Below are positions 9,009 through 64,000 of a DNA stretch of 64,000 nucleotides, in pieces. The position numbers and the translations under genes are program-made. The notes beneath the pieces were generated by a model. That model had not been told where the DNA came from. It did not search any database and was given only the letters and a program-made list of their open reading frames with translations. Source of the DNA: Brachionus manjavacas (lineage: Eukaryota; Rotifera; Eurotatoria; Ploima; Brachionidae); assembly GCA_019054805.1 (NCBI GenBank), contig JAHQIY010000009.1, forward strand, positions 3,162,001 to 3,226,000, in the 5' to 3' direction. The number at the start of each line of letters is the position of its first letter. Positions within the stretch are counted from its first letter, which is position 1.

Positions 9009-9354
9009 TAAATTTAGGCAATGTGAAAGATGAGTACAAAAATTACAGTACAAAAAGTAAAAACGCTATATTTTTTTTCTAATTGTATAAAAATGGTTCT
9101 GTAAACAGTACAATATTGTACAAATTTTTTAGAAACGAATACCAAGCTCTGCAAAAACTCTGCAATTTATTGCATATGGTGTGCATTTTACAGAAAAATG
9201 CAGAGTTTTTGCAGAGCTTGGTATTCGTTTCTAAAAAATTTGTACAATATTGTACTGTTTACAGAACCATTTTTATACAATTAGAAAAAAAATATAGCGT
9301 TTTTACTTTTTGTACTGTAATTTTTGTACTCATCTTTCACATTGCCTAAATTTA
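9009..9354. repeat. Perfect long inverted repeat (156-bp arms, 34-bp loop)
   Basis: Left arm 9009-9164 and right arm 9199-9354 are exact reverse complements when read base by base; the loop is 9165-9198. Transcription of either strand would give a 156-bp perfectly paired hairpin. Inside the arms, at 9044 and mirrored at 9319, a TACAGTACAAA motif resembles the tip of the Tc1-like element at 12677 (TA then CAGTACAAAG). A fold-back or MITE-type DNA element is therefore one explanation; a recent palindromic duplication is another. An 88-codon open frame across it is a by-product of the palindrome. Confidence 0.95.
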
Positions 9355-11879: not shown

Positions 11880-12350
11880 TTTCTGTACCGAGCTAGGGCT
11901 CCTTCAGAATAAATTAAAAAAAAAACAAATTAAAGTTAATAAGCTAAAAAAAAGAAGACATAGATTGCTACATGTGGCACATGTTTACATAGTTCAAGTT
12001 TCAGGAAAAAAGGAGGAAATAGTAAGGTGGCAATTACACAATGGAGTTGGGTATTCAATATATCTCGATTCGAAACCTTCTTTGTATTCCTCCACCAGTC
12101 TTACAACTAATGGAATAGAATGTCTCAGTCCTGTCCCAACATGTCTCTCACTCAACTCAAAAAGCCGATTCGAGACTTTTAGTAATATAAGCTTATTAAA
12201 AGCCTCATGATGCACCATGTTGGAGGGAGTATCATATTTTAACCTAAGGAAAGATCTTACTCCTGTATTCTGAATTGCTTATAGTTTTCATTTAATAAGC
12301 CATTCTTCTAGTTAGTTGGTTATCTAGTTTATTTATTTATCTTATTTTAC
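11880..12350 (-). mobile_element. LINE 3' fragment, dominant family, internally deleted
   Basis: Minus-strand copy of the 3' end of the LINE at 57190-60600. It has the ORF2 C-terminus (VSNRLFELSERHVGTGL, then EEYKEGFESRYIEYPTPLCN) and the characteristic 3' tail (TTCTGAAGGAGC then AGCTCGGTACAG and an A/T-rich run) ending near 11880. At about 12277 the homology jumps roughly 340 bp upstream in the element, so there is an internal deletion. It stops near 12350. Confidence 0.8.
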
Positions 12351-12676
12351 TACTGATCTGATTCTTTCGGGAAGGAAATTTTTACTCGTTTCAAACCGTT
12401 TTTTACTTGACTATCTTTGCACAAAATTTTTTATGAACCGAATGATGAACCGAATGATGGTGACGTGTTTTTCGAAAGTAAAATTAATTAAAAAATTTAT
12501 AGCCAATTTAAATGATTTTTAAGATAAATCATTAATTGATAAGAGTTTGAAAAATATAGACACGAAAGTTAATATGACGGATAATCTGAAGATGTAATAT
12601 TTTTATTAACAGCGAAACAATTTATTTGAAAAATTTTTAATTAAAATTAAATCAATTTATTTATAAAAAATATTTA

Positions 12677-12858
12677 CAGTACAAAGCTGAAAAAAGTTAT
12701 CAACTTTTCAGAACATTTTCAAAGAAAAAGTCAAACTAAAGATTAAACAAAGTCTAAGCTAAAATTAAAATTTTTTTTAAACAAAAACTAAAAACTGTTT
12801 TGTTTTTCAAAAACTGAACAAAATTGAAAATTTAATAAATTAAACTTGACCTTTTAAA
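12677..12858 (+). repeat. Left terminal inverted repeat of the Tc1-like element
   Basis: Starts CAGTACAAAGCTGAAAAAAG next to a TA and matches the reverse complement of 16860-17059 through an inner AACTTGACCTTT block at about 12845-12856. The outermost 40 bp are nearly identical; the middle is diverged and differs by small gaps. Confidence 0.85.
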
Positions 12859-12982
12859 GTTTCAGTTTTATTTAATGTTAATTATTTAATTGAATCTAAT
12901 TTCATTTATAAATAAGCCAAGAATTATGTTTATTAAGCCAATTTGAATATTATCATTTAATCAATAAAAGTTTATTATCAAT

Positions 12983-14296
12983 ATGAGAGCAACAATTTAT
13001 ATTCGCCATAGAATAATATTATTAAGATCAAAAGGTTTATCTCATATAAAAATTTCTCAGATTTTAAAAACAGAAGACAGTCCAATTAGTCGTGTGTCAG
13101 TTGGAAAAATTTGCAGAAAATATCAACGTACGCACAGTTTACAAGACTTACCTGGAAGAGGAAAAAAGACATTATTTAGCGAAAAACATTACCAATATAT
13201 TGATGAACAAATAAAATCCAACAGACAAATTACTTCTGCTCATTTAGTTGCTAAAATTTATTCTGAATTTAGCTTAAAAGTAAGCAGAGATACGATTAGT
13301 AGGGCTGCTAAAAAACTCGATTGGACTAGGAAAACAACCAGGTTACTAATCTATATTTTTAATGTATCAACTTTTTCAGAAATTTATTTATTTTTATTTG
13401 AAAAAGGTATTGTCAGATTGTTTCAGAAAAAAATGTAATTAAGAGAGCTTTGTATGCAAATTTTTGTTTATCAACTAGAGATGAGCTTAATAATTGTATT
13501 TTTATTGATGAATGTATGATCGAACTCGAGCTTCATACTTTAAAAAAGTTAGTTTTATTACCATTTTTATTTATATTGATTTTTTTGTTTTAATGTGTGA
13601 TTGTAGTTGGGTAAAAAAAGGATGTCGGTATTATAAAGCTCCAGTCGCAAAGCACCCATTAAAGGTATTTTTCTCGATGTATTAAAATATTAAAAAAAAT
13701 TTAGCCAATTGTATTATATTAAAGCTTCTTCTATGGGGAGGAATTAGCAATAGAGGTGCAACACCAATTTGCATTTTTAATGGGACGATGTATAGCAACG
13801 ATTTTACAAATATTCTTAAACGAAACTTACTACCTTTTATTAGGTAAAATACATTAAACAGACTAGACATTTATTAAACTATTTATTTATATATTGTTTT
13901 TTTTTATAGCGATTGTTTTCCGGATAGTCACCGTTTAATAATGGACAACGATCGCAAACATACATCGTTCTTTACTCAAGATTGGCTTAAAGAAAATAAA
14001 ATAAACCATTGGCCCACTCCAGCTCAAAGTCCAGTAATAAATATATATATATATTTTTTTTTTCATAGCTTTTGAGTTTTTGTTTAAAGGATTTGAATCC
14101 AATCGAACTTGTATGGCATGAGCTTAAGACATATATTAGACATCAAAAACCGACCTCAAAGACTCATTTTATTAAGCAAATAGGCCAATTCTGGCAAAAA
14201 GAATTAACAGTCGAAAAGTGTCAAAGATACATCTCACATGTTAAAAGGGTTCTTCCACATGTTATCTTAAATAATGGTAGAGCTACTAGTTACTAA
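12983..14296 (+). CDS. Tc1-family DD34E transposase, six exons, intact
   Basis: Cut-and-paste transposase acting on the flanking inverted repeats. Exons 12983-13341, 13407-13547, 13607-13664, 13725-13843, 13910-14033 and 14090-14296 are joined by five GT-AG introns of 56-66 bp. They sum to 1,008 nt, a continuous 335-residue frame, the normal Tc1 length. Residues 1-60 and 68-118 form two helix-turn-helix DNA-binding units separated by a GRPR-like LPGRGKK. The catalytic triad is Asp154 (FIDECM), Asp238 (IMDNDRKHTSFF) and Glu273 (PDLNPIELVW), with 34 residues between the last two, which defines DD34E. LLWGGISNRG and WPTPAQSPDLNPIE are family signatures. No stop or frameshift is seen, so it could be active. 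AATAAA lies near 14466. So many introns is unusual, since Tc1 transposases are typically intronless or have one. Confidence 0.9.
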
Positions 14297-15022
14297 GACT
14301 ATGAATGAAATGTTCGATTCGTTGCTTTTTTTTATCAAGTTTTATCTGGTCGAGCTGAAGCTCCTTTTTATTTTGTATTTAGTTTTATATTCACCAAAAC
14401 TTTTGTGTTTATTTTATTTAGGATTTTGCTTTTATATTTTATTATGCTTTGGTTATATTTGTGTAAATAAAAATGCTTCTTTTTATTAAAACAAAATTCT
14501 TAGACTATATTTAAATTCAAAAAGAGCAAAACTAGTTTAATATTCTTTCACAACTAGGTTCGATTAAAAACTTAGAAAGTTGCTCCTGGACCTATTATCT
14601 GGCCTAAGCGTGTTGAATTAATAATTACAAAAAAGAATTGTCTTTTTAGGGGTCGACCGACTTTCGTTGCCATGATGTAGCTACCCAACTGGTTCGAACT
14701 GATACATTCAATGAAAATTCAAAGTCTGACTTTGACTTGTGATGTTTTTCAAGGACCAACTCTGCATTCAATAATAAAGAGATAAATAGTTAGCTTTGTT
14801 TTTTTAAAAAAATATTTATTAATTAAATTTAATTAAATCAATTTTAATGGCTATTAAGTAAAATAAGTCTTAAAAAAATTCCAAATTATACAAAAAAAAG
14901 AGGAATTATGATAATTGTTTTTTCTTTAATTTTAGAAAAAATTAAGATTGTTTTAACATTAAGAAAAGAAAATCAATTGATTTAAAAAAACAATCTTGTT
15001 ATTGATAACTAATTATAAAACT
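14297..15022. other. Spacer between the two tail-to-tail genes of the Tc1-like element
   Basis: About 730 bp of 3' flanking DNA for both genes. A poly(A) signal for the transposase lies near 14466. No ORF longer than about 70 codons has coding character. Nothing else recognised. Confidence 0.5.
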
Positions 15023-16597
15023 CTAATTTGTTAAAATGTTCCTAATTCGCCGATTCATATAAATAACACATTGTTCCCAAAATTTGACAATTTTATTGTT
15101 TACATTATTATTGTAATGATTGTTACACAATTTTTTTATATAGTTTATCTTATTCAGATCCAATGGTTTTTTATTAGCAAGCTTATCACCCTTTCCATAA
15201 ACATTACAACCAACCAACTCTTCACGGCAAAATATCTTTTCAAGTACATTGGCAGCAAAAAGAGGGCCAGTTTTTGATTCTCTAATTAACTCTTCTAAAT
15301 CTGATCTCGAGCAATAGTCAATATTGCTATAATTCTCTCGGTGAATTGGAGTAGCATAAGATCTATTAATATTAGCATCGAATGAAGAAATAACGTCTCT
15401 ATCTATTGGCCCTGAATATTCTTCGTTTGCTGAAATAAAATCGTCAAATAATACAGATTGATTAAGCATTGGTTGATAATGAGAAGATTTATCTAAGACC
15501 GATGTATTTTGTATTATTCTTTGGTCAGTCTCTTTATGTTTGTTTTGATCTGTTAAGACTCTATGATTCATCATAACTTCATTTTTTTGTTCAATACATC
15601 TGCTTTGTTGTTTTACCAACTCGGATAAATAGCTGTTGCACACGTTGATGCTATTTGAGATCTAATAATTACAAAAAATAATAGTTTGAAAATTATTAAA
15701 TTAAACTTAAATTTATAACAATTACAAGTTCCAATCCCTCTTTTAAGGTTTGGTTAATATCGTTGAGTTCATTTTTATATGACTCAGTTGATGTAAGTTT
15801 ATCCTTAAATTGACTTTGCAATTTTTCAAATTCAACTTGTTCAAATTGTGTCAAATCGCACTTGTTTTTTGAACTTTTTGGTGCATTTTTTGTTTTAACT
15901 TTATCTGTTTTTGCCAAGAACTCAGCATGAACTTGAATCTTAAATTGTAATTTTTTTATTAAATCAAATAAATAAAAAACACTTCAATTTATATATTACT
16001 TGTTTCTCAGAAGTTGAAGATAATTGAGAAAGATTTTTTGTTAATTTCTTTAACGTTTAGTAGATTAAAATTTAATAATAATAAATAAGATACATAGAAT
16101 AAAATTAACTTTTGGAATAGAATCAACTGCTCAAGATTCAATTTTGCTCAAGTACTTTTAAACAACATAAATAAGGGTCATTTTGAATAACAGTCCCTTT
16201 AAAAAATTAAAGATAAAATTTAATTCCATAATTAATTTAAAAAAAAAACATCTAATACCTTGAAATGTTTCCTGGTTTATTTTAAACATTATTTTATCGT
16301 TGTTTATTAAATTAGCTAAATCGATCGACTTTACGATCAAGCTATTCCGAGCTATTTCGCGTTCTGCCACAGGCTCTCGAATCAGCTCTGTTAAAAAAGC
16401 GTTAAAAGAAATTAAAATATAAGTTGATAATATTTATTTTTTAAAACAGTACCTATTGTATATTCGCTGTCATATTTATTAAGATAGTTATCAAAGTGGA
16501 TCACATAATCATTGTTTTTGATATCTTTTATTGTTGCGTTTCGCCAAACAAAACATGTCCTATCAAGAACTTGAACCTTATCGGCTATTTTATACAT
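15023..16597 (-). CDS. Chromo-barrel/Tudor-like + coiled coil + BEN-like protein carried by the Tc1-like element
   Basis: ATG at 16597-16595. Well-supported exons are 16597-16453, 16387-16259, about 15945-15730 and 15663-15023; two small central exons near 16190 and 16050 are less certain. The first exon (VQVLDRTCFVWRNATIKD, then YVIHFDNYLNKYD) resembles the chromo-barrel/Tudor-knot fold of MOF and MSL3. The centre is charged and helical (FEQVEFEKLQSQFKDKL), probably coiled coil. The last about 90 residues (LFAANVLEKIFCREELVGC, KKPLDLNKINYIKKLC, KIVKFWEQCVIYMNRRIR) resemble a BEN domain, a DNA- or chromatin-binding module. Estimated size is about 400 residues. It lies wholly inside the inverted repeats. 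A role in chromatin targeting or regulation of the element is inference. One boundary around 16080-16190 did not resolve, so a frame defect there is possible. Confidence 0.6.
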
Positions 16598-16859
16598 TGT
16601 TTTTATATTAAAAAAAATAAATTCTAAAGCAAACAATTTTAGTGTAAAATTTTAACTAATATTAAAAGAGCGGCTTAAAAAAAAAGAATTCTTTTTAAAA
16701 TATTGAATGTTAAAGATTAAAAGAAATTGAAAAATAAGTCGGCATGAGTTTAATCTTATTATTTTAGTATTAATAGCTAGCAGTAATATTATGATTGTTT
16801 AAATTGAAACAACAATAGACTAGTAATTTATCCAATAAGATTTATCATTAAATTTAATC

Positions 16860-17059
16860 AAAGGTCAAGTTTACAATTTATGTTTTTCAGTTTTTGTTCA
16901 GTTTCAAAAAAAACAAATCAGTTTCAATTTTTTTTTTGAATTTGTTCAGAACAAAATTAAGTTTTGGTTAAATTTTTTTCTGAAATTTTCTAAAAAAAAA
17001 TTAAAAAAAAATTAAAATTTGTTCTGAAATAGTTGATAACTTTTTTCAGCTTTGTACTG
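16860..17059 (-). repeat. Right terminal inverted repeat of the Tc1-like element
   Basis: Ends CAGCTTTGTACTG next to TA at 17060-17061. It is the reverse complement of the left repeat through the AAAGGTCAAGTTT block at about 16860-16873. It contains extra poly(A)/poly(T) tracts compared with the left copy. Confidence 0.85.
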
Positions 17060-18071
17060 TAGGTTTTTTTAATTTTTTTCAAGCAAAATGATGACATTTT
17101 CGAAAAAAAGCATGAAATTTTAAAACAAAATTCAAATATATCAAAAGTTGATAAGGGCAATAAGAGATCAAATATCAAAAGAATAGACCGTAACATAAAG
17201 GTCTGTCAGCATATCTGTCCAAATTATGAAGAATGCAAAGGTAAAGGAAACAATTCAAATGATGGAAAAAAAAGACACTATAGTAGAAAATATTGTCCAT
17301 TTAATAAATCTAAATTAAAATAAAAAAAAAAAAAGAATTAAGAACGGTTTGTGTTATTTTTAACTTTAAATTAATTTAATATAATTGAAATTCTTTTATT
17401 TTTAATTACTTGATTTTCTTTCTTTAAAGGTAAAAGTTTTGAAAATAATTATGATTAACCGAATGAGCATAAACATATGGAAAAATGTCCCATGAACAAT
17501 AATCTTAATGTAATTAAATCAAATTCAGACCAAAATTGCTTTAGAACAATTGCAAATGTAATGTTAAATCAAACAATGGTAACTGTTTTTCCATAAAATT
17601 TTCACTTTCTTTAAAAAATGTTTTAATTTAATGATAGACCGACATCCTCGATCAGATGACAGAAGGCTTTGATGAGATTGAATCTGACACAAACTCACTG
17701 AAGTATCTTCAAAAATCCCTTGGCGTTCCCATAGTGAATTCACGTCCGATAATTTTAAAGTCATTTGGCCTTGATTCGAAAAATTACATATCGAGACTCG
17801 ATGAAAATGATTTATTTTTAAATCAAAATTATAAATCAAATTTGAGTTTTGCTGGAGAAAATTTAATAGATGTTTTGAAGTCTGAAAACTTTATTTTAGA
17901 ATCTCAGCTCAAAGATTCAATCGAAAAAATAAAAAAACTAGGCATTCAAATTGAATTGAAAAACGAAATCGAACAAGAATTGAGATCTGGCATTGAAAAA
18001 CAATCAATTCAAATTGATCAGTTTAGCAATGTTTTAATGAGGTTAATTTTCAACCAGAAATATATATATAT

Positions 18072-18272
18072 TGTGTTTGGTTAGTGGCTTAGGGCTTAAG
18101 CTAAGATGATCCAATATTAAAACAAGAGCGTGGTTGATTATATTTTAAAAAAAATGTAAAAAACATTGAATAATTTTGATAAGAAGTGTAAGATTAGTCA
18201 CATGATTAAATAATTGAACACATAATTTAAAAATACTTAGATTAAGACATAGATTAAGATTAAGACATCACA
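18072..18272 (-). repeat. 3' LTR of the Ty3/gypsy-like fossil
   Basis: Direct copy of 20570-20770, with about 95.5% identity counted by eye. As the element is on the minus strand, this is its 3' LTR. Confidence 0.9.
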
Positions 18273-20569
18273 TCCTCGGTTGGCTTTAATTTTGTTCATC
18301 GTAGGACTTAGCTTTGTGTGATTGGATGTTAAATATTATTGGTTTCTGATGTGAACGTTTAGGATAGCGATTGTTTGGTAGTTCAGTTGATGAGTCATTG
18401 ATTAGATTATTGTGGTCAAAAGACACCAGAGCGTTCATAGTTATTGCAGCAGGGAGAACAGCTTGGTCATGCTCATCTGAATCAGAACTGGTCTCATATT
18501 ATGTGATCTAAGAGTCAAACTGTTTATGATGTTGTTTATCTAGAGGGCCTGCTCTATAATTAGGTAGATTTGGAGATGCTGGTACTGGAACTTGTGTTAG
18601 ATTTCCAATGGTTGGAATTTGTAAATAGCACTCAATACCATTCTCTGGCACTCAATAGGGCTCATATTTTTATATATGAGCCCTATTGAGTGGAAAATTT
18701 CTGCTGCGCAGTTTATTCCAAAATTGAGTCTCTTGTATTGAAATAAGCCAACATGGGCGCTGAAAGTTGTAATGAATCTTGATTCCGGATGCAGCTCTAG
18801 TTGGTGATAGGCTGCGTTGAGGTCTATCTTGGACAAATGTTTTGCACCATTCAAGTCAATTAGCATTTCATCCAGGGTTGGGGTAACATAACGCTCACGC
18901 TGGATAGCTTGATTTAGCAGCCTTGCATCGGTGCATATTCTGATCTTATCAGGTTGATTTGGCTTTGGGTCAATAACAATTGGTGACACCCATGGAGTCG
19001 GACCTTTGATTGGTTCAATTATGTCAGTATCAAGCATGTTCTGGATTTCCTTTTCAACGACATCTCTTAAATGGAATGGTACTCGACGATGTGGTTGTTG
19101 CACTGGTTTTACACTGTGATCAATGTGTAACTTAATTTGGATGCCATTAATTTTTCCAACTTAATTTGAAAAGAGGTTTGGGTACAACCTAAATTCGTCA
19201 CTTACGCTACATGTAATTGAAACTATTTTCAGTGCTTCTAGTGTCTCTAATCCAAGTATACAGCCTGAGTTTCAAAGACTGATAGCAAACTGAGTTTCTA
19301 CTGAGTTGTTTTTGTGTTTAACATGAGTACTGAATGTGCCTAGCATTTGTAATGCTTGTGTTGAGCCATATGCATATACTTTTTTTGTGCTCAGTGCGAT
19401 ATTCACTAGCTTAAAATCAAGACCCTCAAATGTACTTTGGTCGATCACATTGACTGTGGTACCAGTGTCAATGAGAAATCTTGCTTTTCCATTCAGCATT
19501 TGAATATCAACATATTTACGTCTTGATGATTGATGGTCGATTGAGAAAACATTTTCAATGTCATCCTCAGTCGTTTCATTTAACTGGTTTATTTGATTTG
19601 GATATTGTGGTCTTGAGCTGTTATTATCTCTTCGGCTTGATAACTGTTTGGTTTTTGCGCGACAAACTGTGGCAAAGTGGTTTCTTTTTCCACAACTATT
19701 GCATGTCTTGTCTTTAGCAGGACATTGGCGATTCTTGTGGGGATACTCATAGCCGCATAGGCCACATTTTTGTTCTTGCATACGATCGTTTTGGTGAGGT
19801 TTTGAGTTGTTAAACCTCTTCGTTGGTCTATTAGATCTTGAATCAACTTTGTTTATTTTGTCTGATGGTTCAGCAAGAGGTTTTATTGATTCCAATGCTC
19901 TCCCAAAACGTAGTGCGTCTTTGAGGGTGAGATTTTCTGCAAGAATAAGTTGTGTCTTGAGACTATTTGAGCTAGTATTTTCCATTATTTGAGACAGTAT
20001 TTCTTCATCATGGTTTTGGAAATCACATTCTCGTAAACCAGATGCAGATTCTCGTAAACGACTCACAAACTTGTCGATTGACTCATCGTGATACTGTTTT
20101 ATCTGTCTAAACTGAGAGACTCTTAGTCGTTTATTTCCAGTTAGTTGAAAGTATGTGCTAAGTTTGTCGATAATCTGTTGAAAAGTGTCATTGTCTGATT
20201 TTAAATTGGCATAAACATCATATGTTCTTGGTCCAATGCAATTGAGTAGCCTAGCTTTTATTTGACGCAATCTTTTTATGTATTCAGGCGGTGCTAATTC
20301 ATTTGCATTTGTTGCTGGTAATGGCTCAAGATCAAGTGTGACCAAAAGGTTGTTAAAACAATCGACCCAGTTCTTCCATCTAAAAGTAACGTTAGGGGTG
20401 TGCAGATCAGCATCAAATGTGTTTATCGTTTCATTCATCTTGGTTTAAATTATGATTGGTTTGGTAAATGGTAAAATGAATCGATTATGATTCGGTGTGA
20501 CACTGATTAAATCGGATAAAATCGGATTAAGTTTTATTCGTTTTTTTTTTTTTTCTCGTCGCCGGATGT

Positions 20570-20770
20570 TGTGTTTGGTTAGTGGCTTAGGGTTTAAGCT
20601 AAGAAGATCCAATATTAAAACAAGAGCGTGGTTGATTATATGTTAAAAAAAATGTAAAAAACATTGAATAATATTGATAAGAAGTGTAAGATTAGTCACA
20701 TGATTAAATAATTGAACACATAATATAAAAATAATTAGATTAAGACATAGATAAAGATTAAGATATAACA
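20570..20770 (-). repeat. 5' LTR of the Ty3/gypsy-like fossil
   Basis: Direct copy of 18072-18272. It sits just upstream of the gag-like reading frame on the minus strand, so it is the 5' LTR and would have carried the promoter. Confidence 0.9.
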
Positions 20771-21769
20771 TATATATATTAATATTTTTATTTAAATTGC
20801 AGACATGAGACCTCTACTCAAAATGAAAATCAAAATATCCTGATTTAAAAAATTCAGTCAAAAAGATTTGTCCACTTTTTCAAAAATGTAATGGAGAAGG
20901 TAATTCAAAGTCACAGGATGGAAAAAGACATTTTGCAATCGAAAGCTGTCCGATTTTTCGAAACATTGATCTGGAAAAAAATAAAAAAAAAAATGAAAGA
21001 ACTGAATTTGAAACAAAAGAGCTTTTAAAAATAAATGAATCTCAGAAAGAACTTATTCTAAATATGAAATCGAACTCATGACTCTGAGAAACAAGGAGAC
21101 GTTTCCAGAAAATGACTATCTAGAAATCAAGAAAGCAATAATCCAAAAGGAAAAAATCATTTCTGAAATCGAAGTTCAAAATGTAAAATATCTAAGGTAA
21201 ATTTTTACTAACAAATAAAATCTGGATATTAAATTATATAATTGATTCTCTTGCACAATTCAAGAATAAAAAAAAGAAATTGAAAAACTAAATGGTTCAC
21301 TAAAAGAAACTAAGAAAATATTTAATCACTAATTAGAAGAAATAAATGAAAAATTGAGAGGTTTGAAAAACGTTAAAATTTCTGAGATTTGAATCCTTAA
21401 ATCGTTAGTAATTCTAGTTTGTTAAATTATTATTAAAATTTTCTTAAAGATCAGTCTGCAATCTTTACAGAGCCGAATTAGATAAAACGAGTGAATTTAA
21501 TTCCATTAAAGCTACTTTATAAGGAAAAAATAATTCAATTGAACAGAAGGAAAATTTAATAAATGAATTAAGAAACGAAAATAAAAAAATGCAAAATTCC
21601 TTTAATTTTATAAATAATTTAATTAATTTAAAAAAATTAGATTTGTGTTTATTGCGAAAAAGAATGCAAAAATTGTCATAGTTTTACGATTTATTGTGGT
21701 CATAAACACAGATGCAATACTTGTAATCTTTCAATACTTAAATGCAACTGTTAATTTCTTAAAAATTTA

Positions 21770-26841: not shown

Positions 26842-26948
26842 AAATTTGAAAAAAATACAGAAAATTCTTTTTTCTACTTATACAGATAAACAAAAAAATA
26901 AATAAATTAAAAGTAAAAAAAAGAATTTTCAGTATTTTTTTCAAATTT
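26842..26948. repeat. Imperfect hairpin (about 38-bp arms)
   Basis: Arms at 26842-26879 and 26911-26948 are near-complementary around an AGAAAATTC/GAATTTTC core. It lies between the dispersed repeat and the inverted ORF copy at 26970 and may be part of the same non-autonomous element. Confidence 0.5.
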
Positions 26949-37240: not shown

Positions 37241-37394
37241 TTTGTGTGTTAGCAATGTCGCTAACCAATCCTAACCTAAATAGACGCTGGATTTTTAAAA
37301 ATTCGGTCAAACTAGACCTTAAAAAGTTAGATAAACCAGTCACCCACAAAAATAAAATTTGACTCTCTTGATGTCGCCCTTAATCTAGTCGAGA

Positions 37395-38462
37395 ATGACG
37401 CAATCACGTCTATTTACAACTTTTCGTCGAATAAGATATGGATCATCGAATTCAAAGACTTATCTCGAAAAAATTTTTGGTCGAGAAATTGACATCAATA
37501 GCACAATTTTTAAGCTTGAAGATGCGAATAAAATCCCGGATCTTAGAAGATATTGTACCTTTAGATTTCATTTCTTGCCTACAGATTTCGAAAACAATCT
37601 TCTGAAAAACTTTTTAAACGCGATTCGTATTGATGGACTGAAAATAGAAGAAATTTCAGAGGAAAAGTACAAAGACAGACCTGAGGGAAAAAATAGTGTA
37701 AGAAGAATTAGAATTTCGTATCCAAAGGAAGTAGACAACATTTTTAGAAGCTTGTCTGGCCCAACAATCATGTATGGTCTAAAATGTGTTGTTACAATCG
37801 TTGGACAAAAACAAAAATGCTACTTTTGTGATGAAGAAGGACATAATATAGCGAAATGCCCAGTCAAAGATTCAACATGTGAAAGGTGTAAGCAAAAAGG
37901 CCACATGACTTAAAAATGCTCGATTGCCGAAAAACTTAAATCTCTTGAGAGAAAAAAAGTTGACTATAGTGAACTTTTTGTGGAACAAGAAGAAATCGAA
38001 TCAATCCATGAACAAGAACAAATCGATTCTGAAGAAATAAGTAAGCCAGACACACCAGTATATCAGCTAGATTCCAACAATAGCAATGATTCAATTCTAA
38101 TCCATCTTACAGGATCTCAAATCCTTAAAACGCCTGTTTTAGAAGATCATCTTCGTGATGTGCAAAAATCTTACACTCAAGACATTCTAACACCGGTTCA
38201 AGCAAATAAAACTGACAAAACAAAACATTTTATTCAAACGAAAATCTAAACCAAGAGACCATCTGAATCCGAACCCAACAAAGATGATTCAAATGAAGAG
38301 AAATCGGACACAGAAAATGATGACGATAATCCTTTCGAGTCAGAAACAATGAGTTCAACGAGAAGCTTTCTACAAGGAACTGAACAATCTAAAAAGTTTA
38401 GAACGAACACAGTAATTGAACAACCAACTGGTCCAAACAATATGGAAGAAAATTTAGAATGA
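37395..38462 (+). CDS. LINE ORF1 (nucleic-acid-binding, CCHC zinc knuckles), two in-frame stops
   Basis: The frame from ATG 37395 to TGA 38460-38462 (355 codons) is interrupted by stops at about 37911 and 38247. The N-terminal about 135 residues have the look of an RNA-binding fold. Two zinc knuckles follow: CYFCDEEGHNIAKC and CERCKQKGHMT (its last Cys lies after the first stop). The C-terminal third is acidic. Homologous to the minus-strand frame at 63588-64000, where the knuckles are intact. The TGA overlaps the ORF2 start as ATGA. Confidence 0.8.
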
Positions 38463-40554
38463 TCTTTTCAAAAAAAAATTCTCTTATGAAAAAAAGGTTA
38501 GTAGTAACACACTGGAATCGAATTCATCTTCCCAGTAAGACTAAACTTTTGGAAAATTTTTTGGTCCAGAACTGTCCCGACATTGTTTTGCTCAATGAAA
38601 TAAAAATTGATTTGAGTGAATCAAATATTTATTTTGACTTTAAAAACTATCACTAAATAACTAAACGCAATAGATATGGAGGAGAAGTAGCTATTTTGAT
38701 TAATGAAGGAATTGATTTTTTACAAGACTTTTCTTTTGAGCACTTTAATTGTGAACTGCTTTGTATTAAACTTAATCTAGGAAAGAGTAATGAAATATCT
38801 GTGTTTAGTCTATACAATCCACCCAACAAATTACTTAATTTTGAGCTATTTAAAACAATAAAAAAGGAACTGTAGAAACTACATTCTGTGTGGGGACCTT
38901 AACGCCAGGACGAAGCAAATAGGCTGTTTAGGAGAAAATGAAAAAGACTCATTGTTAGAAAAAATAATCAATGAATTAGATTTTTCAGTGGTTAACGACA
39001 AATGTCCTACATATAATATTTTAAATAGGAATTACTTTGAAATTCTTGACCTTTTTTTAGTTTTTTCTTCATTAATAGACAAAGTTACTGATTTTTGTGT
39101 TCTCAATAGTAAGGATATGACTAGTGACCATTTTCCAATTGAAGCATCTATTTCAATTGACTACTAAATTAAAAGCAAATCTACAATTAAGAAATTCAAC
39201 TACAAGAAAGCAAACTGGCAACTTTTTAGAGACATCTTAAATGAAGTTAGAGATTACCTTAGTGAAAACACACTTTCAATAGATGAACTGAATAACAAAA
39301 TTACAAAAAAAATCATTTCTGCTTCACATAAATGCATACCTTATCAATCAGAGAAAATAAACAAAACTAGTCTACCCCAGATATAGTTATGCTGATCAAA
39401 GAACATAGAAAAACTAGAAGAAACTTTCATAGAACTCGTTGTCCATTACTTAAGAAAAGATTTAATCACTTAACCTCAGAGTTAAAAATCTCAGAAAGTA
39501 AATTCTGGAATCAAAATTTTTTTGATTTCATTCAGAAAATGGGGAAAAATCCTCTTTCAAGCAGGCCTTTTTGGAAAAAATAAACAAATTTAGAACACAT
39601 AAAGGATCAAAATTAATTCCAAATTTGATCTCAAATAACAAGGAATTATAAAACTAATAAGGAAAAAGGAAAATGCTTCGGAGATATATTATCTTCAACA
39701 TTTAGTCCTCACTCTGATCTAATAGATACTGAAAAAGATAATGAAATAATTAGCTTTAATTTTGAATACCTCAGGAATTACAATCAGTGTAATTTCAATG
39801 ATCCTTTTTGCCCAAACGGACTTATACTGGCTTTTAAAAGACTGAAGACTGAAGCGGCCTCAGTACCTGACCAAATATATAATCTAATGCTTAAAAATTT
39901 ACCAAGAAATTCCTTAATAGAAATCTCAAAACTTTTTAACTTATCTCTGCGACATGGTATTATTCCAAAATCATGGAAAATTGCGAACATAACTATACTT
40001 CAAAAAAATGCATCTTCTCCACAAGATCCTTCAAACTTTAGACCAATCAGTATAACAAGTTGCCTTGGAAAGTTACTTGAGCGTATAATTTACACAAGAC
40101 TCTAAAATTTTTTAGAAAAAAATTTATTACTTATCCAGGAACAATCAGGATTTAGGAAACATCGGAGAACTTCCGATAATCTTTGCTTTTTGATTCAAAA
40201 AATTGTAGAATCATTTAATAGAAAGAAAAGAATTTGTTCCCTTTTCATTGATATTTCTAAAGCTTTTGATAGGGTTTGGCAGGAAGGTTTAATTTATAAA
40301 TTAATAAAAATAAATCCACCACAATACTTAATTAACTGGATTAGATCCTTCTTAGACTCAAGGACATTTAGGGTGAATGTGAATGACAACTTAAGCGACG
40401 AATATCAAATAACTGCAGGTGTTCCTCAAGGCTCAGTTATTAGTCCTCTTTTATTTAGCATTTATATTAATGATATCCCTAAAAGAAACAAAACAAATAA
40501 TGAATACTCTCTTCTTTTTGCAGATGATCTAGTTACTTTTTTTATTTACAACAA
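38459..40554 (+). CDS. LINE ORF2 (endonuclease and reverse transcriptase), broken and truncated
   Basis: Starts at ATG 38459, overlapping the ORF1 stop by four bases. The APE-like endonuclease shows NEIKID, YGGEVAILI, LNARTKQIGC and TSDHFPIEASI (the catalytic SDH is kept here). Reverse transcriptase follows from about 39880: NFRPISITSCLGKLLERI, EQSGFRKHRRTSDNL, DISKAFDRVWQEGL, GVPQGSVISPLLFSIYINDI and LLFADDLVTFF. There are several stops and frame changes, for example near 38653, 38870, 39165 and 39382. The frame is cut at 40554 and the thumb and tail are at 43870-44565 on the other strand. Confidence 0.82.
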
Positions 40555-40579
40555 CTTGTTGTAAATAAAAAAAGTAACT
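40531..40579. repeat. Perfect 24-bp-arm palindrome at the LINE breakpoint
   Basis: Arms 40531-40554 and 40556-40579 are exact reverse complements around one C. The left arm is LINE coding sequence (LVTFFIYN); the right arm is an inverted copy of it. Such snap-back duplication is expected at a repaired break. Confidence 0.9.
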
Positions 40580-43621: not shown

Positions 43622-44565
43622 ATTTTATTTATTTATTTATTTGTTAACTGTACCGAGCTATAGCTCCTTCAGAATAAAAATAAAAAATAAAAAGTAAAAA
43701 ATAAAAAATTAAGTTAAGTAAAATTAAAAATTAAAAAAGTTAAGTAAAATAAAATCAAAAAATAAAAATAAAAATATGAATAAAGTTTGTAAGAGTTAAT
43801 AACCTGGAATAAAAAATAGTTATATGATAATGAGAGTTTTAGGTCATTCAGGTTTACATAGTTTAGGTTTCAAGAAAAAATAGAGGAAATTGTAAGGTAG
43901 CAATTACACAATTGAGTCGGGTATTCGGTATTTCTTGATTCGAAACCTGCTTTGTATTCATCCACCAGTCTGACAACCAATGGAATGGAATTACTCAGTC
44001 CTGTCCCAACATATCTCTCACTCAACTCAAAAAGACGATTCGAGACTGTTAGTAATTTTAGTTTATTAAAAGCATCATGTTGCACGATGTTGGAGGGAGT
44101 ATCATATTTTAACTTGAGGATAGATCTGACTGCTGTATTCTGAATTGCTTGTAGTTTTTTGATATTATTTTCTGAAAATGAATTCAAGCAAGGAAACGAA
44201 TAGTCTAGAATTGAACCAACTAAAGATTTATAAAGATTTCCAAACGTTTTTTGATTAAGACCCCATTTTTTGTTTGACAGAATCTTAATTAGATTTAGCC
44301 TTGTATTGTAACGTTCTTTTATTTCGTCAACCAGTGTATTAAAATTTAATTTAGAATCAAATTTAATACCTAGAAACTTAATTTCTTTTTGGCTTTTTAT
44401 TCTATTTCCATAAATTTTTAAGTTAAGATTATCACTTTCTTTCTTGTACTAAAAGAATACTACTGAACACGACTTTTCAACTGACATCTTCATTTTCCAC
44501 TTAATTAGCCATTGTTCTAGCTCGTTGGTGTATTTATTTATCTTATTTTCAAGATTTCCCTTTTC
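43622..44565 (-). mobile_element. LINE, dominant family: 3' part of the inversion-split copy
   Basis: Minus-strand ORF2 C-terminus. It begins KGNLENKINKY at about 44565, exactly where the 40554 half ends, and runs through LWNLYKSLVGSILDYSFPCL-like sequence to LFELSERYVGTGLSNSIPLV and EYPTQLCN. It ends in the family tail (TTCTGAAGGAGCTATAGCTC, GGTACAGTTAACAAATAAAT) at 43622. One in-frame stop lies near 44448. Its orientation is opposite to the 5' part. Confidence 0.85.
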
Positions 44566-54965: not shown

Positions 54966-57165
54966 ATGGAAGCTCAAACTCAAAATCAGACTAACTGAAA
55001 CCATTACACAGTAAATGACTTAAAATTTTTTTTATTTTGTTAAAGGGACTGTTTGCTTACCATCTCAAAATCCTTTACCTGAGTTTCTTTACAATATTTT
55101 GACCAGCTCATCTTTAGAATCTCAAAACTTTCGAAAATCAATCCGCTTATACAATAAGATTCTTTCGTTTAGATCTATTAACACCGATTATAATCAAGAT
55201 TTAATGCGAGCTTCATCAGATGTTTACACATATAGAATTAGAGGTGAAGTAAACCAATAAATTGGTAACTTCAAACCTGACGATTCCAACCAACCATCAT
55301 TTTCTCAAATTTATTTGTACGATACTTAGTTTTAATTAGAATATCGAGCAAATAAATTCAAATCGATACTAGATATTAATATTTTAAACAATTTACAAAA
55401 TATTCTTCAACAAAATCCATATGTAAACATTTGGCAACGGGTAAAAGGTAAAAGACTTAAAGAAGACCCTACACTTGACCTTAAAATTGTTTTAAAAATA
55501 ATTTTTCATCCAATAAACGAAACAATTTACCAATAACTCAAGAAATCGCTGTGCTAATTACAAATGACGAGAAAAAAACATAATCAACGATTAAGTTGTT
55601 AATGGTAAAGATGGAGCCATATGAAGATTTTTACGTGTAATTTTGGACATAGAAATTTTTCAATTTATTGTAATTGTATACAGAATGTTTAGAGATTTTC
55701 ATGTGTAGGAAAATAATTGGACTAAGGTTTTTTTTGAACATGCTTATATAGCCAATTAAATAAACTTTTTAAGGATAATCCTTGATAAGTAATGAATGTA
55801 AAAAGTTTAATTGATTAATTGATTGATATTTCTCATGTACAGGCGTGCTCATTTACCAATCAAAAATGACATTCCAAAAAAAATCAACATGAAATCTAAA
55901 AAAAATTCGGATAATGATGATGAAGATGTTGATCTAAACAATGAATCATAAGAGTTTAACAAGGAATACGTCACAGCTATGCATATCAACTACATGATAG
56001 ACCAAGTATGTTCGAATCTTTAATATTGATACAAGACCCTTAAATTTTTAAAATTTTTTTATCTTTAAAGATGCAAATTTGCATATTATTCAACAATAAA
56101 TTTTCCACTAATGCAACAATTTATTGTTGAATAATATGCTGGTAAAGTCGACTCAACTATTTAAAGTTCAATCAAAAAAATATACGATCTGAATTGTATC
56201 AGGGGATGATTGATTCATTAAATAAAGACGATATCCCAATCCAGAAAATATTGGAAAAAAAGTAATCCTTCCTTCTTCTTTTATCGGAGGTCCACCCCAC
56301 ATGAATCAACTTTATCAAGATTCAATGTCAGTGGTTCGAGCTTATGGTAAACCGGACCTTTTCATTACCATGACGTGTAATCCTAACTGGCCTGAAATCA
56401 AGAACGAACTTCTTAAATTCCAAACACCCAATGTCCGACCTGATTTATTAGTTCGTCTTTTTAGATCAAAACTTAAGATGCTTATAGACGATTTAACCAA
56501 AAACAATGTTCTCGGTCGTACTATTGGTCACATCTATGTTGTTGAATTTCAAAAAAGAGGCTTGCCTCACGCCCATATTTTGATAATTCTTCACCCTGAC
56601 GACAAAATTAGGACAGCTAAACAAGTCAATCAAACAGTATCGGCCACAGTATCTGAAAAAGAAAAATATCCCACCTTATATAGGATTCTAAAATCATGTA
56701 TGATGCATGGCCCATGTGGGGAAGCAAATCCAAATTCACCGTGAATGGTTGATGGTGTTTGTAGTAAAAATTTTCCAAAGGATTATACTGAGGAAACTAT
56801 TCTTTCAAACAACACATATCCAAATTACAAACGCAGTATTTCTAATTTGGAAAATAAATGGGTAGTTCTATACAAAGCTTATCTATAAACTAAGTATAAC
56901 TGTCTCAAAAACGTTGAAGTCTGTAACGCTGTAACTGCTGTTGTTAAGTACATATACAAATACGTTTACAAAGGAAAAAAATTCTTCTTTAAAATAAGAG
57001 TTTTACATAAAAGAAATCAGATAGTTTTGTATTCTTAATAAAATGATAGCTCATTGGCAGAAATCATTTATAATCTTGATGGTCAACCACAGAATCCTAA
57101 GCCAGTCGACGAAATCTTAAAATTCAAATACATGAGATATTTTAGCGCATGCGGAGCATGATGTA
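54966..57165 (+). mobile_element. Helitron, Rep-domain part, decayed
   Basis: Rolling-circle transposon. An N-terminal Helitron-like region lies at about 55040-55500 (LYNKILSFRSINTDYNQDLM, DVYTYRIRGEV, NPYVNIWQRVKG). The HUH Rep nuclease is open at 56301-56744 (LFITMTCNPNWPEI, then RGLPHAHILIIL with the two His). The tyrosine motif is AVVKYIYKYVYKGK at about 56930-56975. Near 57100-57160 comes DEILKFKYMRYFSACGA, a known Helitron segment. Stops and frameshifts occur throughout, and a hairpin insertion lies at 56081-56139. The helicase half reappears at 61560-62165 after nested LINEs, so this is one interrupted element. Helitron ends are not identified. Confidence 0.82.
56081..56139. repeat. 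Perfect 22-bp-arm hairpin inside the Helitron
   Basis: Arms 56081-56102 and 56118-56139 are exact reverse complements with a 15-base loop. It interrupts the Helitron reading frame and has no counterpart in the expected Rep protein. Confidence 0.9.
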
Positions 57166-57228
57166 ATTAATCCCCAAAAAGATCGATAAATAATTGATTA
57201 TAAACTTGAGTTTTTTAATAAGGAAAAT

Positions 57229-57558
57229 CAATTTAAATTTGACGAGCTTGTTAACGATTTTCAACTTCCATGTCAGTCACTTGTCAATGTCCTCTCAAAT
57301 GATCAGAATGAGACTGAAGCTTTTTTCCAAACAAAAAATCAAATCAAGAGATTTCCCGAATCTGATCCAAATGAAAAAGAGCTCACCGAAAATGAATCAA
57401 AGAAACCATTAGTTGTATTAGAAAATCAAAACGACAGTACCTTCGAGTCTGAATCAAACAGTTCAACAACTGAATGTTCAATTCAAGTAGATCAATCATC
57501 TAACGAAATTGGTCAGCAAACTGCCGGTCAAAACAGCATTGAAGAAAATTTAAAATGA
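57229..57558 (+). CDS. LINE ORF1, C-terminal 109 codons
   Basis: Acidic C-terminal part of the CCHC protein (SNDQNETEAFFQTKNQIKRF, FESESNSSTTECSIQVDQSS, QNSIEENLK) with the stop TGA at 57556-57558. The stop overlaps the ORF2 start as ATGA, as in the 38-kb copy. The zinc knuckles are lost through 5' truncation. Homologous to the minus frame at 63268-63537. Confidence 0.8.
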   Translation, partial: QFKFDELVNDFQLPCQSLVNVLSNDQNETEAFFQTKNQIKRFPESDPNEKELTENESKKPLVVLENQNDSTFESESNSSTTECSIQVDQSSNEIGQQTAGQNSIEENLK

Positions 57559-60216
57559 ACAAGAACCTAAATAAATCAACTTTAAGAACAAAACCTCTTA
57601 ATAAAACAAGGTTAGTAATTACACACTGGAATTGTCTTCATTTATCTAGTAGGGTTCATCTCTTAGACAATTTTTTAGCTCAAAAATATCCAGACATTGT
57701 TTTGCTCAATGAACTAAAGATAGATTTAAGTGAGGCAAAAATTTATCTTGATTTTCACAATTATCAATTCATAACAAAACCACGCAACAAGTATGGAGGA
57801 GGAGTAGCAATTTTAATTAAAGAAGGAATTGAATTTATACAAGATTTCTCTTATGAGGAATTCAATTCCGAACTCCTTTGTATAAAAATGAACTTAGGAA
57901 AGAATAATGAATTGTTTATATTCAGTCTTTATAATCCACCCAATATGCTTCTGAACTTTGAGTTTTTTAAAACTTTTAATAAAAAATGTAGAAACTACAT
58001 TTTAGGTGGTGATCTTAACGCCAGAACAAAGCAAATAGGCTGCGTAGGGGAAAATGAAAACGGCATAATGTTGGAAAGAATAATCAGTGAGTTAGACTTC
58101 TCAGTAATTAATGATAAGCGTCCTACTTTCAATATTTTTAATAGGAATTACTTTGAAATTCTTGATCTTTTCTTAGTTTCATCTTCATTAATTGACAAAA
58201 TTACCGACTTTTGTGTCCTAAATAGTCAAGACATGACTAGTGACCAATTCCCAATCGAAGCATCGATTTCTATGGGCTATCAATTAGAAAATAAATCAGC
58301 AGCTAAAAAGTTTTACTATAAGAAAGCAAACTGGCAATTATTCAGCGAGATTTTAAATTCTCAAATAGTAAATATCACTGAAAGTTCCCTCACAATAGAT
58401 CAACTAAATGATAAAATTACAGAAAAAATTATTTCTACTTCACATAAAAGCATTCCTTATCATTCGCAGAAAATCTACAAAACCAGTCTTCCCCGAACAT
58501 TGTTATTCTGATAAAAGAACGCAGGAAAGTAAGAAAAAACTTTCAAAAAACTCGCTGTCAAAATCTCAAGAAAAAATTTAATCAACTTACATTCGAGTTA
58601 AAGGCCTCTTTAAAAAAATTCTGGAATCAAAATTGGTTTGATTTTATTGAGAAAATGGGAAAAAACCCACTGACAAGTAGACCATTCTGGAAAAAAATAA
58701 ATAAATTTAGATCAAAAAAAGGATCAAATTTAATCCCAAAATTGTTTTTAAATGACAAGGAATTCAAAACTATAAAAAAAGTTAGTGGTTAGAAAAGGGA
58801 AAATGCTTTGGAGAACTCCTATCTTCAATATTTAGTCCTAATTCTGATTTAATAGATCGTGATAAAGATTTCGAAACACTTAATTCTAACTCTGAATTCT
58901 TTAGAAATTATGATCAGTTTAATTTTAATGATCTAATTTGCTTAAATGAATTAATTATGGCTCTAAAAAGATTGAAAATGATGCGGCATCAGGACCTGAC
59001 CAAATTCATAATCTAATAAAAAACTTACCTAGAAATTCATTTATAGAAATTATAGAACTTTTTAATTTATCTCTTCGAGAAGGTAGAGTCCCTAAAGCAT
59101 GGAAAACATCGAACATTACTATGATTAAAAAAAAAGCCTCTTCTTTACAAGATCCTTTAAATTATAGACCAATAAGTATAACGAGTTGTTTAGGAAAGCT
59201 CCTGGAACGCATAGTATTTTCAAGATTATACAATTATTTGGAACAAAATTCACTCCTTATCCAGGAGCAATCTGGATTTAGGAAACACCGGCGAACATCA
59301 GATAATCTTTTCTTTTTAATTCAAAAAATTGTGGAATCATTTAATAGAAAAAAAAGAGTTTGTGGCTTTTTTTTGATATTTCTAAAGCCTTTAATAGGGT
59401 TTGGCATGAAGGTCTACTTTTTAAATTGATTAAAATGAATCCACCTCATTACTTGACTAACTGGATTAGATCCTTTTTAGACACTAGGACATTTAAGGTA
59501 AATGTGAATGACCATCTGAGCGACGAATATCAAATAACTGCAGGTGTTCCTCAAGGCTCAGTAATTAGTCCTCTTTTATTTAGTATATATATTAATGGCA
59601 TCCCAAAAAGAAACAAAACAAATAATGAATACTCTCTGCTTTTCGCAGATGATCTAGTTACATTCTTCATTTATAACAAGAAAGGGAACCTAGAAAATAA
59701 GATTAATAAAAATACACCAACGAACTGGAACAATGGCTTATTAAATGGAAAATGAAGATATCAGTTGAAAAGTCGTGTTCAGTAGTCTTTTCAAGGTACA
59801 AAAAAGAGGGTGATAATCTAAACTTAAAAATCTATGGAAACAGAATAGTGAGCCAAAAAGAAATCAAGTTTCTTGGTATTAAATTTGATTCTAAGATAAA
59901 CTTTAATATTCTAGGAGACGAAATTAAAGAACGCTGCAACAAAAGGCTAAATATTATTAAGATATTGTCAAACAAAAAATGGGTTTTCAATCAAAACACA
60001 CTAGGAAATTTATATAAATCTTTAGTCGGATCGATTTTAGACTATTCTTTTCCTTGCTTGAATTCATTTTCAGAAAATAATATCAAAAAACTACAAGCAA
60101 TTCAGAATACAGCAGTCAGAGCTATCCTCAAGTTAAAATATGATACTCCTTCCAACATTTTGCATCATGAGGCTTTTAATAAACTTAAATTACTAACAGT
60201 CTCAAATCGGCTTTGA
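57555..60216 (+). CDS. LINE ORF2 (APE endonuclease and reverse transcriptase), broken
   Basis: Open from ATG 57555 to 58511: endonuclease with LLNELKIDLSEAK, KYGGGVAILIKEGI, ILGGDLNARTKQIG and TSDQFPIEASIS, where the catalytic His of SDH has become Gln. The frame then shifts several times (58512-59120), resuming at 59121-59429 (NYRPISITSCLGKLLERI), 59360-59755 (DISKAFNRVWHEGLLFKL, GVPQGSVISPLLFSIYING, LLFADDLVTFFIYNKKGNLE) and 59752-60216 (LYKSLVGSILDYSFPCLNSF). A stop interrupts SNRL at 60214. The copy cannot encode a working protein, but every domain is present in order. Confidence 0.85.
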
Positions 60217-60604
60217 GAGCTGAGTGAGAGATATGTTGGGACAGGACTGAGTCATTCTATTCGATTGGTTGAAAGACTGGTGAAAGAATATAAAGAAGGT
60301 TTCGAATCAAGATATATTGAATACCCAACTCCATTGTGTATTTGCTACCTTACTATTTCTTCTTTTTTTCCTGAAACTTGAACTTTTTAAACATGTGCCA
60401 CATGAAACAATCTTTTCCAATTTATGTCTTTTCAACTTTAATTTTTTTTAAATTATTTACTCTATTTTAATTTTTTTTTTTATCTAATTTTATTAACTTT
60501 AATTTTATTTTTATTTTGTTTTATTATTTTATTTTTAATTTATTCTGAAGGAGCTTTAGCTCGGTACAGAAAACTAATAAATAAATAAATAAAATAAATA
60601 AATA

Positions 60605-61500
60605 ACACTAAAGAGATTATATCAGCGATAAATATGTTAAAAGAGGAAACAGCTTCGGGACTAGACCAAATTCATGACCTTATGTTAAAAAATTTACCGC
60701 AAAATATTCTAAAAGACATTATGTATTTTTTTAGTTTAAGTCTAAGAGAAGGTAAAATACTCAATGCATGGAAATCTGCTAACATTACAATGATACCTAA
60801 TAAGTCAATTTTAACACAAGACCCAGCTTACTCATTACTAATTCAGGAGCAATCAGGTTTTAGAAAAAATCGACGAACCGCTGATAATCTCTTCTTCCTT
60901 ATTCAAAAAACTGGAGAATCATTTTAATTGAAAGAAGAAAGTTTGTTTCCTATTTTTTGATAACTCCAAACCATTCGATAGGTTTTGGCATGATGGTGAT
61001 ATTTATAAACTAATAAAAATGAACCATCACTTTTACCTAATACATTGGATTAATTCATTTTTTAACTCAAGATCATTAAAAGTAAATGTAAATGATCACA
61101 TAAGTGATGAATACAATATTACTGCAGGTTTTCCTCAAGGCACAGAAATTCGTCCATTACTTTTTAGTATTTTTATCAATGATATTCCTAAAAGAAATAG
61201 AACAAATAGTGAATACTCTTTTCTTTTTGCAGATGACTTGGTTACATTTTATATTTTTTAAAAAAAAGGTAATCTAGAAAATAAGATTAACAAATACTTT
61301 GAGGAACTAAAAAAATGGCTCTTCAAGTGGAAAATGAAAATATCTGTTGAAAGGTTTTGCTTCATTGTCTTCACTAAATATAATATGTAAAATGTTGACT
61401 TAAAATTAAAAATATATGAAAACAAAATCGAGAGTCAAAATGAAATCAAGTTTTCAGGTAAATTTGATTCAAAATTAACCTTTACCCCAATGGTTGATTA
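60605..61500 (+). mobile_element. LINE, dominant family, older internal RT fragment
   Basis: Reverse transcriptase pieces of the same family but more diverged. They are ETASGLDQIHDLMLKNLPQN, a deletion after TQDPA, QEQSGFRKNRRTADNLFFLI, a shifted palm, FPQGTEIRPLLFSIFINDIP, FLFADDLVTFYIF then KKGNLENKINKYFEELKKWL, and KWKMKISVER. Both 5'- and 3'-truncated, with several stops. It abuts the tail of the previous copy. Confidence 0.8.
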
Positions 61501-62234: not shown

Positions 62235-64000
62235 CACATACCTTTTTTTTCATTGGTCCTGATCTAGAAGAAAAAATCAGAGCGTTTTGATTCCAAATAT
62301 TTTTTAAACTGCTTCTTAACTCTATAGTCATTTGGTTGAATATTTTTTTAGTATTTTTACAACGAGTTTTTTTAAATATTCTTCTTTTTTCCTGCGTTCC
62401 TTAATTAAAATTACAATGATCGGTGGGAGAATTTTTTTGAAAATTCTATTTTTTTGGTATCGAATGCTTTTATGAGCTGCAGAAATTAATTTTTTGGTAA
62501 TTTCTTCATTTTGTTCGTCGATTGATTCTGAATTTAATCCTTAGTTTTGACCATTTAGAATCTCACGGAAAAAAAAAATTTGCATTTTTATAGTAAAGCT
62601 TCTTTGGTTGTTTCTTTGGTCAACAAAGAAGATGACACTAAAAATAAATTAAGATTTTCGAAATATTCTCTTTTGAATATGTAAAAGGTTGGATACTTAT
62701 TATTGATTACTGTAAAATTAAGCTCGTTAATAATGCTTTCTAAAATGATTCCATTTTCGTTTTCTCCAATGCATCCTATTTTTTTTGTTTTAACGTTTAG
62801 TCACCCCCGAGAACATAATTTTTACAATTCTTATTTATCTTTTCGAATATACTAAAATTTAGAAGTTTATTAGGTGGATTATATAAGCTGAAAATGTATA
62901 ATTGATCTTTTTCTGGATTTATTTTGTTACAAAGTAATTCAGAAGAAAATTCATCATTCGAAAAGTATTGGACGAACTATAATTACTCTTTACTAAAATT
63001 GATACTCCTCCACCATGCTTATTGCGTGGTTTAAATTTTAAAATCTAAGAAAATGTTTGATTTTTTTTCATTAAGTAAAACAATATGTGGGGAAAGTTGA
63101 GTCAAAAAATTTCTAATAGAATCTTGCTGGGGAGATGAGAACAATTCCAATGTTTTGTTACCAACCTTGTTTTATTTAGAGGTTTTGCTCTTAAAATAGA
63201 TTTTTTTTATTCTTGTTAATTCAAAATTATCTTCTAAGCTATCTTGACTTGAAGTTTGCTGAACAACTCAGTTGAATGTTTGATCCACGCGGCTTGAACA
63301 TTCATTTATTGAACTGTTTGATTCAGACTCGAAGGTAATGTCGTTTTCATTTTCTAAGGCAACCAATGGTTTCTTTGATTCTTTTTCGGTGAGTGCTTTT
63401 TCATTTACATAAGATTCGGGAAATCTCATCATTTGATTTTTGGTTTTGAAAAAAGTTTCAGTCTCATTTTTATCATTTGAGCGTATATTGACAGGTGACT
63501 GACATAGAAGTAGAAAATCGTTTAAACGACTTACCAAAGCTACTTCTAAAACTGGAGTTTTAAGGTATTTTCGGCTAATTTGGGATATTACGTCATTGAA
63601 ATTTGTTGGCTGATATCCAGGTGTTTTGGCATCACATTTTCATCATTATCTTTTTGGTCAGCTTCAATTTTTGATTGCGTTTCTAATTGGTCGATGAAAT
63701 GTTCATTGTTCTCAATCTTTATCCTCTCAAGCGACTTAAGCTTTTCGGCAATGGAGCATTTTTGTGCCAAGTGTTCTTTCTTATGACACTTTTCACAAAG
63801 AGTTTCTTTGACAGAGCATTTCGCTATGTTGTGTCCTTCATCATCACAAAAATAGCATTTCTGCTTTTGTCCAACAATTGACACAACATACTTTAAAACA
63901 TACATTATTTTGGGGCTTGACAAGCTTCCAATAATGTTCTCAACTTCTTTTGGAAATGATATTCGCACTCTTCCTACACCATTTTCCTCTCGGGTCTATC
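62235..64000 (-). mobile_element. LINE, dominant family, 3'-truncated copy running off the right edge
   Basis: Minus strand. ORF1 enters at 64000 (REENGVGRVRISFPKEVENI) and keeps both zinc knuckles (CYFCDDEGHNIAKC and CEKCHKKEHLAQKC) at about 63770-63870. It is broken near 63588 and resumes at 63537-63268. The degraded endonuclease part of ORF2 (KPLNKTRLVTKHWNC near 63185, GCIGENENGIILESIINELN near 62750) decays to about 62235, next to the Helitron helicase. The four-base ORF1/ORF2 overlap is not preserved here. Confidence 0.8.

Follow-up and report, generated by a model that had tools for sequence, protein, structure and literature searches.

A Tc1-type element of Brachionus manjavacas with a BEN-domain gene convergent to its DD34E transposase gene

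The DNA analysed here, referred to as the window, is a stretch of 64,000 nt from Brachionus manjavacas (GCA_019054805.1, contig JAHQIY010000009.1, forward strand 3,162,001-3,226,000), and all coordinates are positions within it, its first letter being position 1. The GC content is 27.5%, in keeping, together with the short introns and genes of animal type, with a metazoan host; the GC of monogonont rotifer assemblies is reported as 24.95-31.14% (PMC11954553). The interval 12677-17059 (4.38 kb, about 4.4 kb), of which one copy was analysed, is a real two-gene Tc1-type element, known here from that single copy. Its features are as follows.

12675-12676, no strand: left TA, presumed half of a TA target-site duplication (from the sequence)
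12677-12854, plus strand: left terminal inverted repeat, with a perfect 29-bp tip (12677-12705) and a conserved inner block to 12854
12983-13341, plus strand: transposase exon 1, start codon; helix-turn-helix region placed by sub-cut-off matches
13407-13547, plus strand: transposase exon 2, carrying the first catalytic D
13607-13664, plus strand: transposase exon 3 (gene model)
13725-13843, plus strand: transposase exon 4 (gene model)
13910-14033, plus strand: transposase exon 5, carrying the second catalytic D
14090-14296, plus strand: transposase exon 6, with the catalytic E and the stop
14297-15022, no strand: spacer separating the convergent genes; AATAAA on the plus strand at 14466 and 14773, and six on the minus strand
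15023-15661, minus strand: BEN gene exon 6 and stop; BEN domain at about 15038-15259 (coordinates derived from the Pfam residues)
15726-15938, minus strand: BEN gene exon 5 (gene model)
16000-16047, minus strand: BEN gene exon 4 (gene model)
16156-16196, minus strand: BEN gene exon 3 (gene model)
16259-16387, minus strand: BEN gene exon 2 (gene model)
16453-16597, minus strand: BEN gene exon 1, start codon; weak royal-family (MBT/Agenet-like) module
16860-17059, minus strand: right terminal inverted repeat, with its tip at 17031-17059 and its inner block starting at 16860
17060-17061, no strand: right TA, presumed half of a TA target-site duplication (from the sequence)

Both ends carry the tip CAGTACAAAGCTG, at 12677 and 17059, each bordered by TA, and 29 bases at the start of the two ends are identical in inverted order. 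Scanning the window with the 15-nt tip at up to three mismatches returned five matches, of which only those at the 12677 and 17059 ends are perfect; the remaining three carry three mismatches, which is about the chance level (mean 2.49). Past base 32, the local similarity of the ends has a score of 71, as high as in none of 500 first-order resamples (maximum 63), and their end-free global score of 118 was likewise reached by none of the 500, by a narrow margin (maximum 115). The local alignment comprises 206 columns (172 ungapped, 146 matches) and is gap-rich in AT-rich DNA, and the tip and the inner block are the convincing portions of the end homology. The matched ends measure 178 bp (left) and 200 bp (right), and we assign them to one element because tip and inner block match and the only positions of the 14-mer TAAACTTGACCTTT anywhere in the window are 12841 (plus strand) and 16860 (minus strand), the inner limits of the end homology.

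The tips begin with CAGT, which we take to be typical of the Tc1 family. The ends of Sleeping Beauty contain internal direct repeats; none of that style were found within either end of this element (equally high scores arose in 351 and 158 of the 500 resamples for the two ends). A search inside the element for an older right end returned nothing beyond chance: no internal site agreed with the 32-nt tip at more than 19 of 32 positions, a value reached by 99 of 100 resamples.

The transposase gene model consists of six exons (12983-14296, plus strand) and encodes 335 residues in an unbroken frame. Its five introns are 56-66 nt long and each is GT-AG; as in the second gene, the exon joints were picked by eye with GT-AG and an open frame as the criteria, and this agreement carries no independent weight for splicing. 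The predicted protein matches the Pfam family DDE_3 (E 2.7e-21; 76.4 bits, cut-off 28.6) and has the catalytic triad D154, D238, and E273, in which 34 residues separate the second D from the E (DD34E). When the PDB was searched with the protein, the sole sequence at E<=1 was the Sleeping Beauty transposase SB100X (E 2.1e-20, residues 147-335). Six models of the helix-turn-helix type also matched the transposase (best E 0.00069), each under its own cut-off. Three claims of the initial annotation are upheld: TA-flanked inverted repeats (TA at both outer borders, perfect tips, and homology reaching 12854 and 16860), a single Tc1-type element enclosing both genes (both models lie between the matched ends), and a DD34E transposase, whose modelled frame is unbroken.

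The second gene is convergent with the first and is likewise modelled with six exons (16597-15023, minus strand), which encode 404 residues in an unbroken frame; its five introns, each GT-AG, are 61-108 nt long. Its last exon contains the longest open run of the element, 212 codons, compared with a maximum of 148 in 500 resamples of the element. The C-terminus of the protein (residues 327-400) matches the BEN domain, Pfam PF10523, with an E of 1.1e-6 and a score of 29.2 bits, the cut-off being 23.2. This was the one BEN domain identified, and there was no Pfam match to BTB in the protein. Despite the clear Pfam match, the BEN exon had no match in the PDB at E<=10, and a query made from exon 5 (with one wrong residue) had none in Pfam. 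An AlphaFold single-sequence model of the BEN exon was unusable (mean pLDDT 38.7). The sequence CCAATTGG, a target of Insensitive, which is a BEN protein of flies, is absent from the window.

The N-terminus of the BEN protein resembles a royal-family (MBT/Tudor/Agenet) barrel only weakly. A phmmer search of the PDB with the N-terminal 105 residues matched 20 sequences, 14 of them L3MBTL proteins with MBT repeats. The best match, L3MBTL3, had a whole-chain E of 3.5e-4, but the independent E of its best single repeat was 1.8; four of the 20 rows were the unrelated MukE (E 0.06-0.17), and the best value in a reversed-sequence control was 0.88. In Pfam, Agenet matched the N-terminus below its cut-off (E 0.0067-0.13), as did Tudor_FRX1, and the unrelated MukE profile slightly outscored Agenet in the two scans that returned both (0.038 vs. 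0.13, and 0.0025 vs. 0.0067). No chromo-barrel or Tudor-knot profile matched in the Pfam scans of the protein, in which the HMMER filters may drop weak matches, and the AlphaFold single-sequence model of exon 1 was unusable (mean pLDDT 43.0). Profile searches with the 16597-15023 protein thus agree with the initial annotation as to a BEN-like end of the minus-strand gene, and they do not support the chromo-barrel/Tudor-knot module that it had placed in the first exon, where we obtained the sub-cut-off Agenet matches and the weak resemblance to L3MBTL.

Several other weak Pfam matches were taken as noise. These were Peptidase_S46 (0.023), MukE (0.038), MAML1_3_TAD2 (0.066), and Neur_chan_memb (1.1) for the full second protein, DUF4806 (0.044) and FKBP15 (0.088) for the BEN exon, and Glyco_tranf_2_4 (0.043) for exon 1.

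The BEN gene lies wholly between the element ends from start to stop. Its third-position GC is 0.262, and that of the transposase is 0.232. Among five comparison ORFs of the window, taken as stop-to-stop runs, three host-like ones have values of 0.306-0.381 and two mobile ones 0.272 and 0.302. The BEN gene is therefore nearer to the transposase than to the host-like ORFs, which we regard as a hint only, the mobile value of 0.302 abutting the lowest host-like value of 0.306. When 1265 open runs of at least 25 residues from the window were compared with both proteins, the matches at E<=1 amounted to 11 rows, all within 12968-16651. Relatives were also sought in five scans of contig collections, with the BEN protein (viral and prokaryotic contigs), the transposase (viral contigs), and the exact 25-nt tip (viral and prokaryotic contigs). 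None were found in these collections, which are nearly uninformative for an animal element; short patterns in three of the five scans matched 2, 2, and 15 stretches, none of which was confirmed by tblastn.

The window contains other repeats and mobile elements. An LTR-type retrotransposon of about 2.7 kb occupies 18068-20771, with two 206-nt direct repeats (95% alike), between which lie, on the minus strand, a gag-like ORF (Pfam gag match below cut-off) and a reverse-transcriptase ORF; a short AT repeat at both sides is a possible target-site duplication. Related pieces of non-LTR retrotransposons lie at 37389-40564, 57190-61460, 63119-63995, 43870-44564, and 11962-12288; they have zinc-knuckle, endonuclease, and reverse-transcriptase ORFs with 72-90% identity between compared blocks, and one piece stops about 390 bases to the left of the Tc1 element. 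A Helitron replicase fragment was identified at 56226-56744 (Helitron_like_N, E 6.5e-45). There is a near-perfect hairpin at 9009-9354 (160-nt arms, 99% complementary, 26 nt apart) and a short inverted repeat at 26842-26948, whose 41-nt arms are 93% complementary with 25 nt between them.

A single gene is usual in Tc1/mariner elements. The element described here has the features common to the DD34E Tc1 family of the Sleeping Beauty type, namely TA flanks, inverted repeats, and a DDE_3 transposase with the 34-residue D-E spacing. Unlike usual members of that family, it adds a convergent BEN gene, its transposase model has five introns, and internal direct repeats were not found. The metazoan BEN proteins BANP, NAC1, and the BEND family share the C-terminal BEN domain with the second protein, which differs in being transposon-encoded and in having one BEN domain, no BTB match, and a weak royal-family-like N-terminal module. 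A search of the open-licence literature (titles and the starts of abstracts) found no Tc1 element with a BEN gene. DNA transposons may hold additional ORFs, and the TBE and Tec elements of ciliates, which belong to the Tc1/mariner superfamily, are described as having three (PMC7325037); in TBE the 22-kD ORF is reversed and purifying selection is reported for all three ORFs (PMC4724952). As described in those papers, these elements resemble ours in combining a transposase with accessory genes, of which one is reversed; ours differs in its animal host, in having two genes, and in the second gene being a BEN gene. A multi-gene layout in Tc1/mariner is consequently not new, and the proposal of the initial annotation that Tc1 elements normally encode only the transposase holds as a rule with the ciliate TBE and Tec elements as exceptions (PMC7325037, PMC4724952).

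The reading that we consider somewhat more probable than all others together is a single autonomous DD34E cut-and-paste transposon of the Tc1 family with two genes, the BEN protein being an accessory factor that serves the element. It is favored by the matching ends, by the failure to find an older end between them, and by the short introns of one style in both complete gene models, as well as by a BEN match above the curated cut-off, a third-position GC near that of the transposase, and the multi-gene precedents in ciliates. It is weakened by the single copy, the weak GC argument, the missing internal direct repeats, and the sub-cut-off helix-turn-helix matches, and also by the poor support for the N-terminal reader and the AlphaFold models, which were of no use. 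DNA transposons are well known to pick up host sequence, and an ordinary Tc1 element may have taken up a complete host BEN gene in a single event, the gene riding along without taking part in transposition. BEN genes are ordinary genes of metazoans according to PMC10206803, only one copy of the element was seen, and no finding here ties the BEN gene to transposition. Such a capture is nonetheless unlikely in our view, as the BEN gene has an unbroken frame and fits entirely inside the two ends, the search for an internal repeat end gave nothing above chance and, as a weak argument, its third-position GC is closer to that of the transposase than to those of the three host-like ORFs.

Nearby insertion of two copies can also create structures of this kind, and two related Tc1 copies, inserted separately, could by chance have left their ends on either side of a host BEN gene, in which case the right end would be foreign to the left transposase copy. 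We give this very little credence, since the window has just two perfect tips, inverted and facing outward as expected of a single element, with TA at both sides and no internal end beyond chance. Least probable of all is that the element is an immobile, domesticated locus of which the host has retained one or both genes. Both frames are indeed unbroken in the sole known copy, but the perfect 29-bp tips and the TA at both sides are what mobile elements keep and domesticated genes usually lose.

Under the favored reading, the BEN gene would be a standard part of the transposon family, as suggested by the unbroken frame and the fit between the ends. A more ambitious form of this proposal is an animal Tc1 lineage in which every copy has a stable convergent BEN gene whose product is a partner that directs the choice of target or protects the element against silencing. 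We hold it only tentatively and lean against it; to our knowledge, no described animal Tc1 family uses a BEN partner for targeting or for escape from silencing.

By analogy with the family, the transposase would bind each end at its tip and at its conserved inner block, excise the element, and then insert it at a TA. Each end with its subterminal DNA could be a candidate promoter for its gene, because the start codons lie 306 bases from the left tip (transposase) and 462 bases from the right tip (BEN gene). Factors with a BEN domain are described as DNA binders that recruit chromatin-modifying factors (PMC10206803), so a DNA-binding accessory role is the most likely one for the second protein. 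Carried to the benefit of the element, it would bind either the element ends or host sites through its BEN domain, its long middle part might, as a guess, join protein copies to one another, and the barrel-like module at its N-terminus may contact chromatin. We infer a chromatin role for this protein, which may modulate expression, silencing, or target choice.

Tc1-type elements, which serve as gene vectors, rank with the simplest of the cut-and-paste transposons. A BEN gene that was a feature of a Tc1 family would be surprising, whereas otherwise the capture would be an ordinary one; even then, with the gene as a one-off passenger, the locus would represent the clean capture of a whole gene, introns included, by a Tc1 element. 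If instead the element brings its own DNA-binding chromatin protein, it would show a minimal element gaining control over its landing site or its silencing, and the two-gene element would then be a ready system for testing such control.
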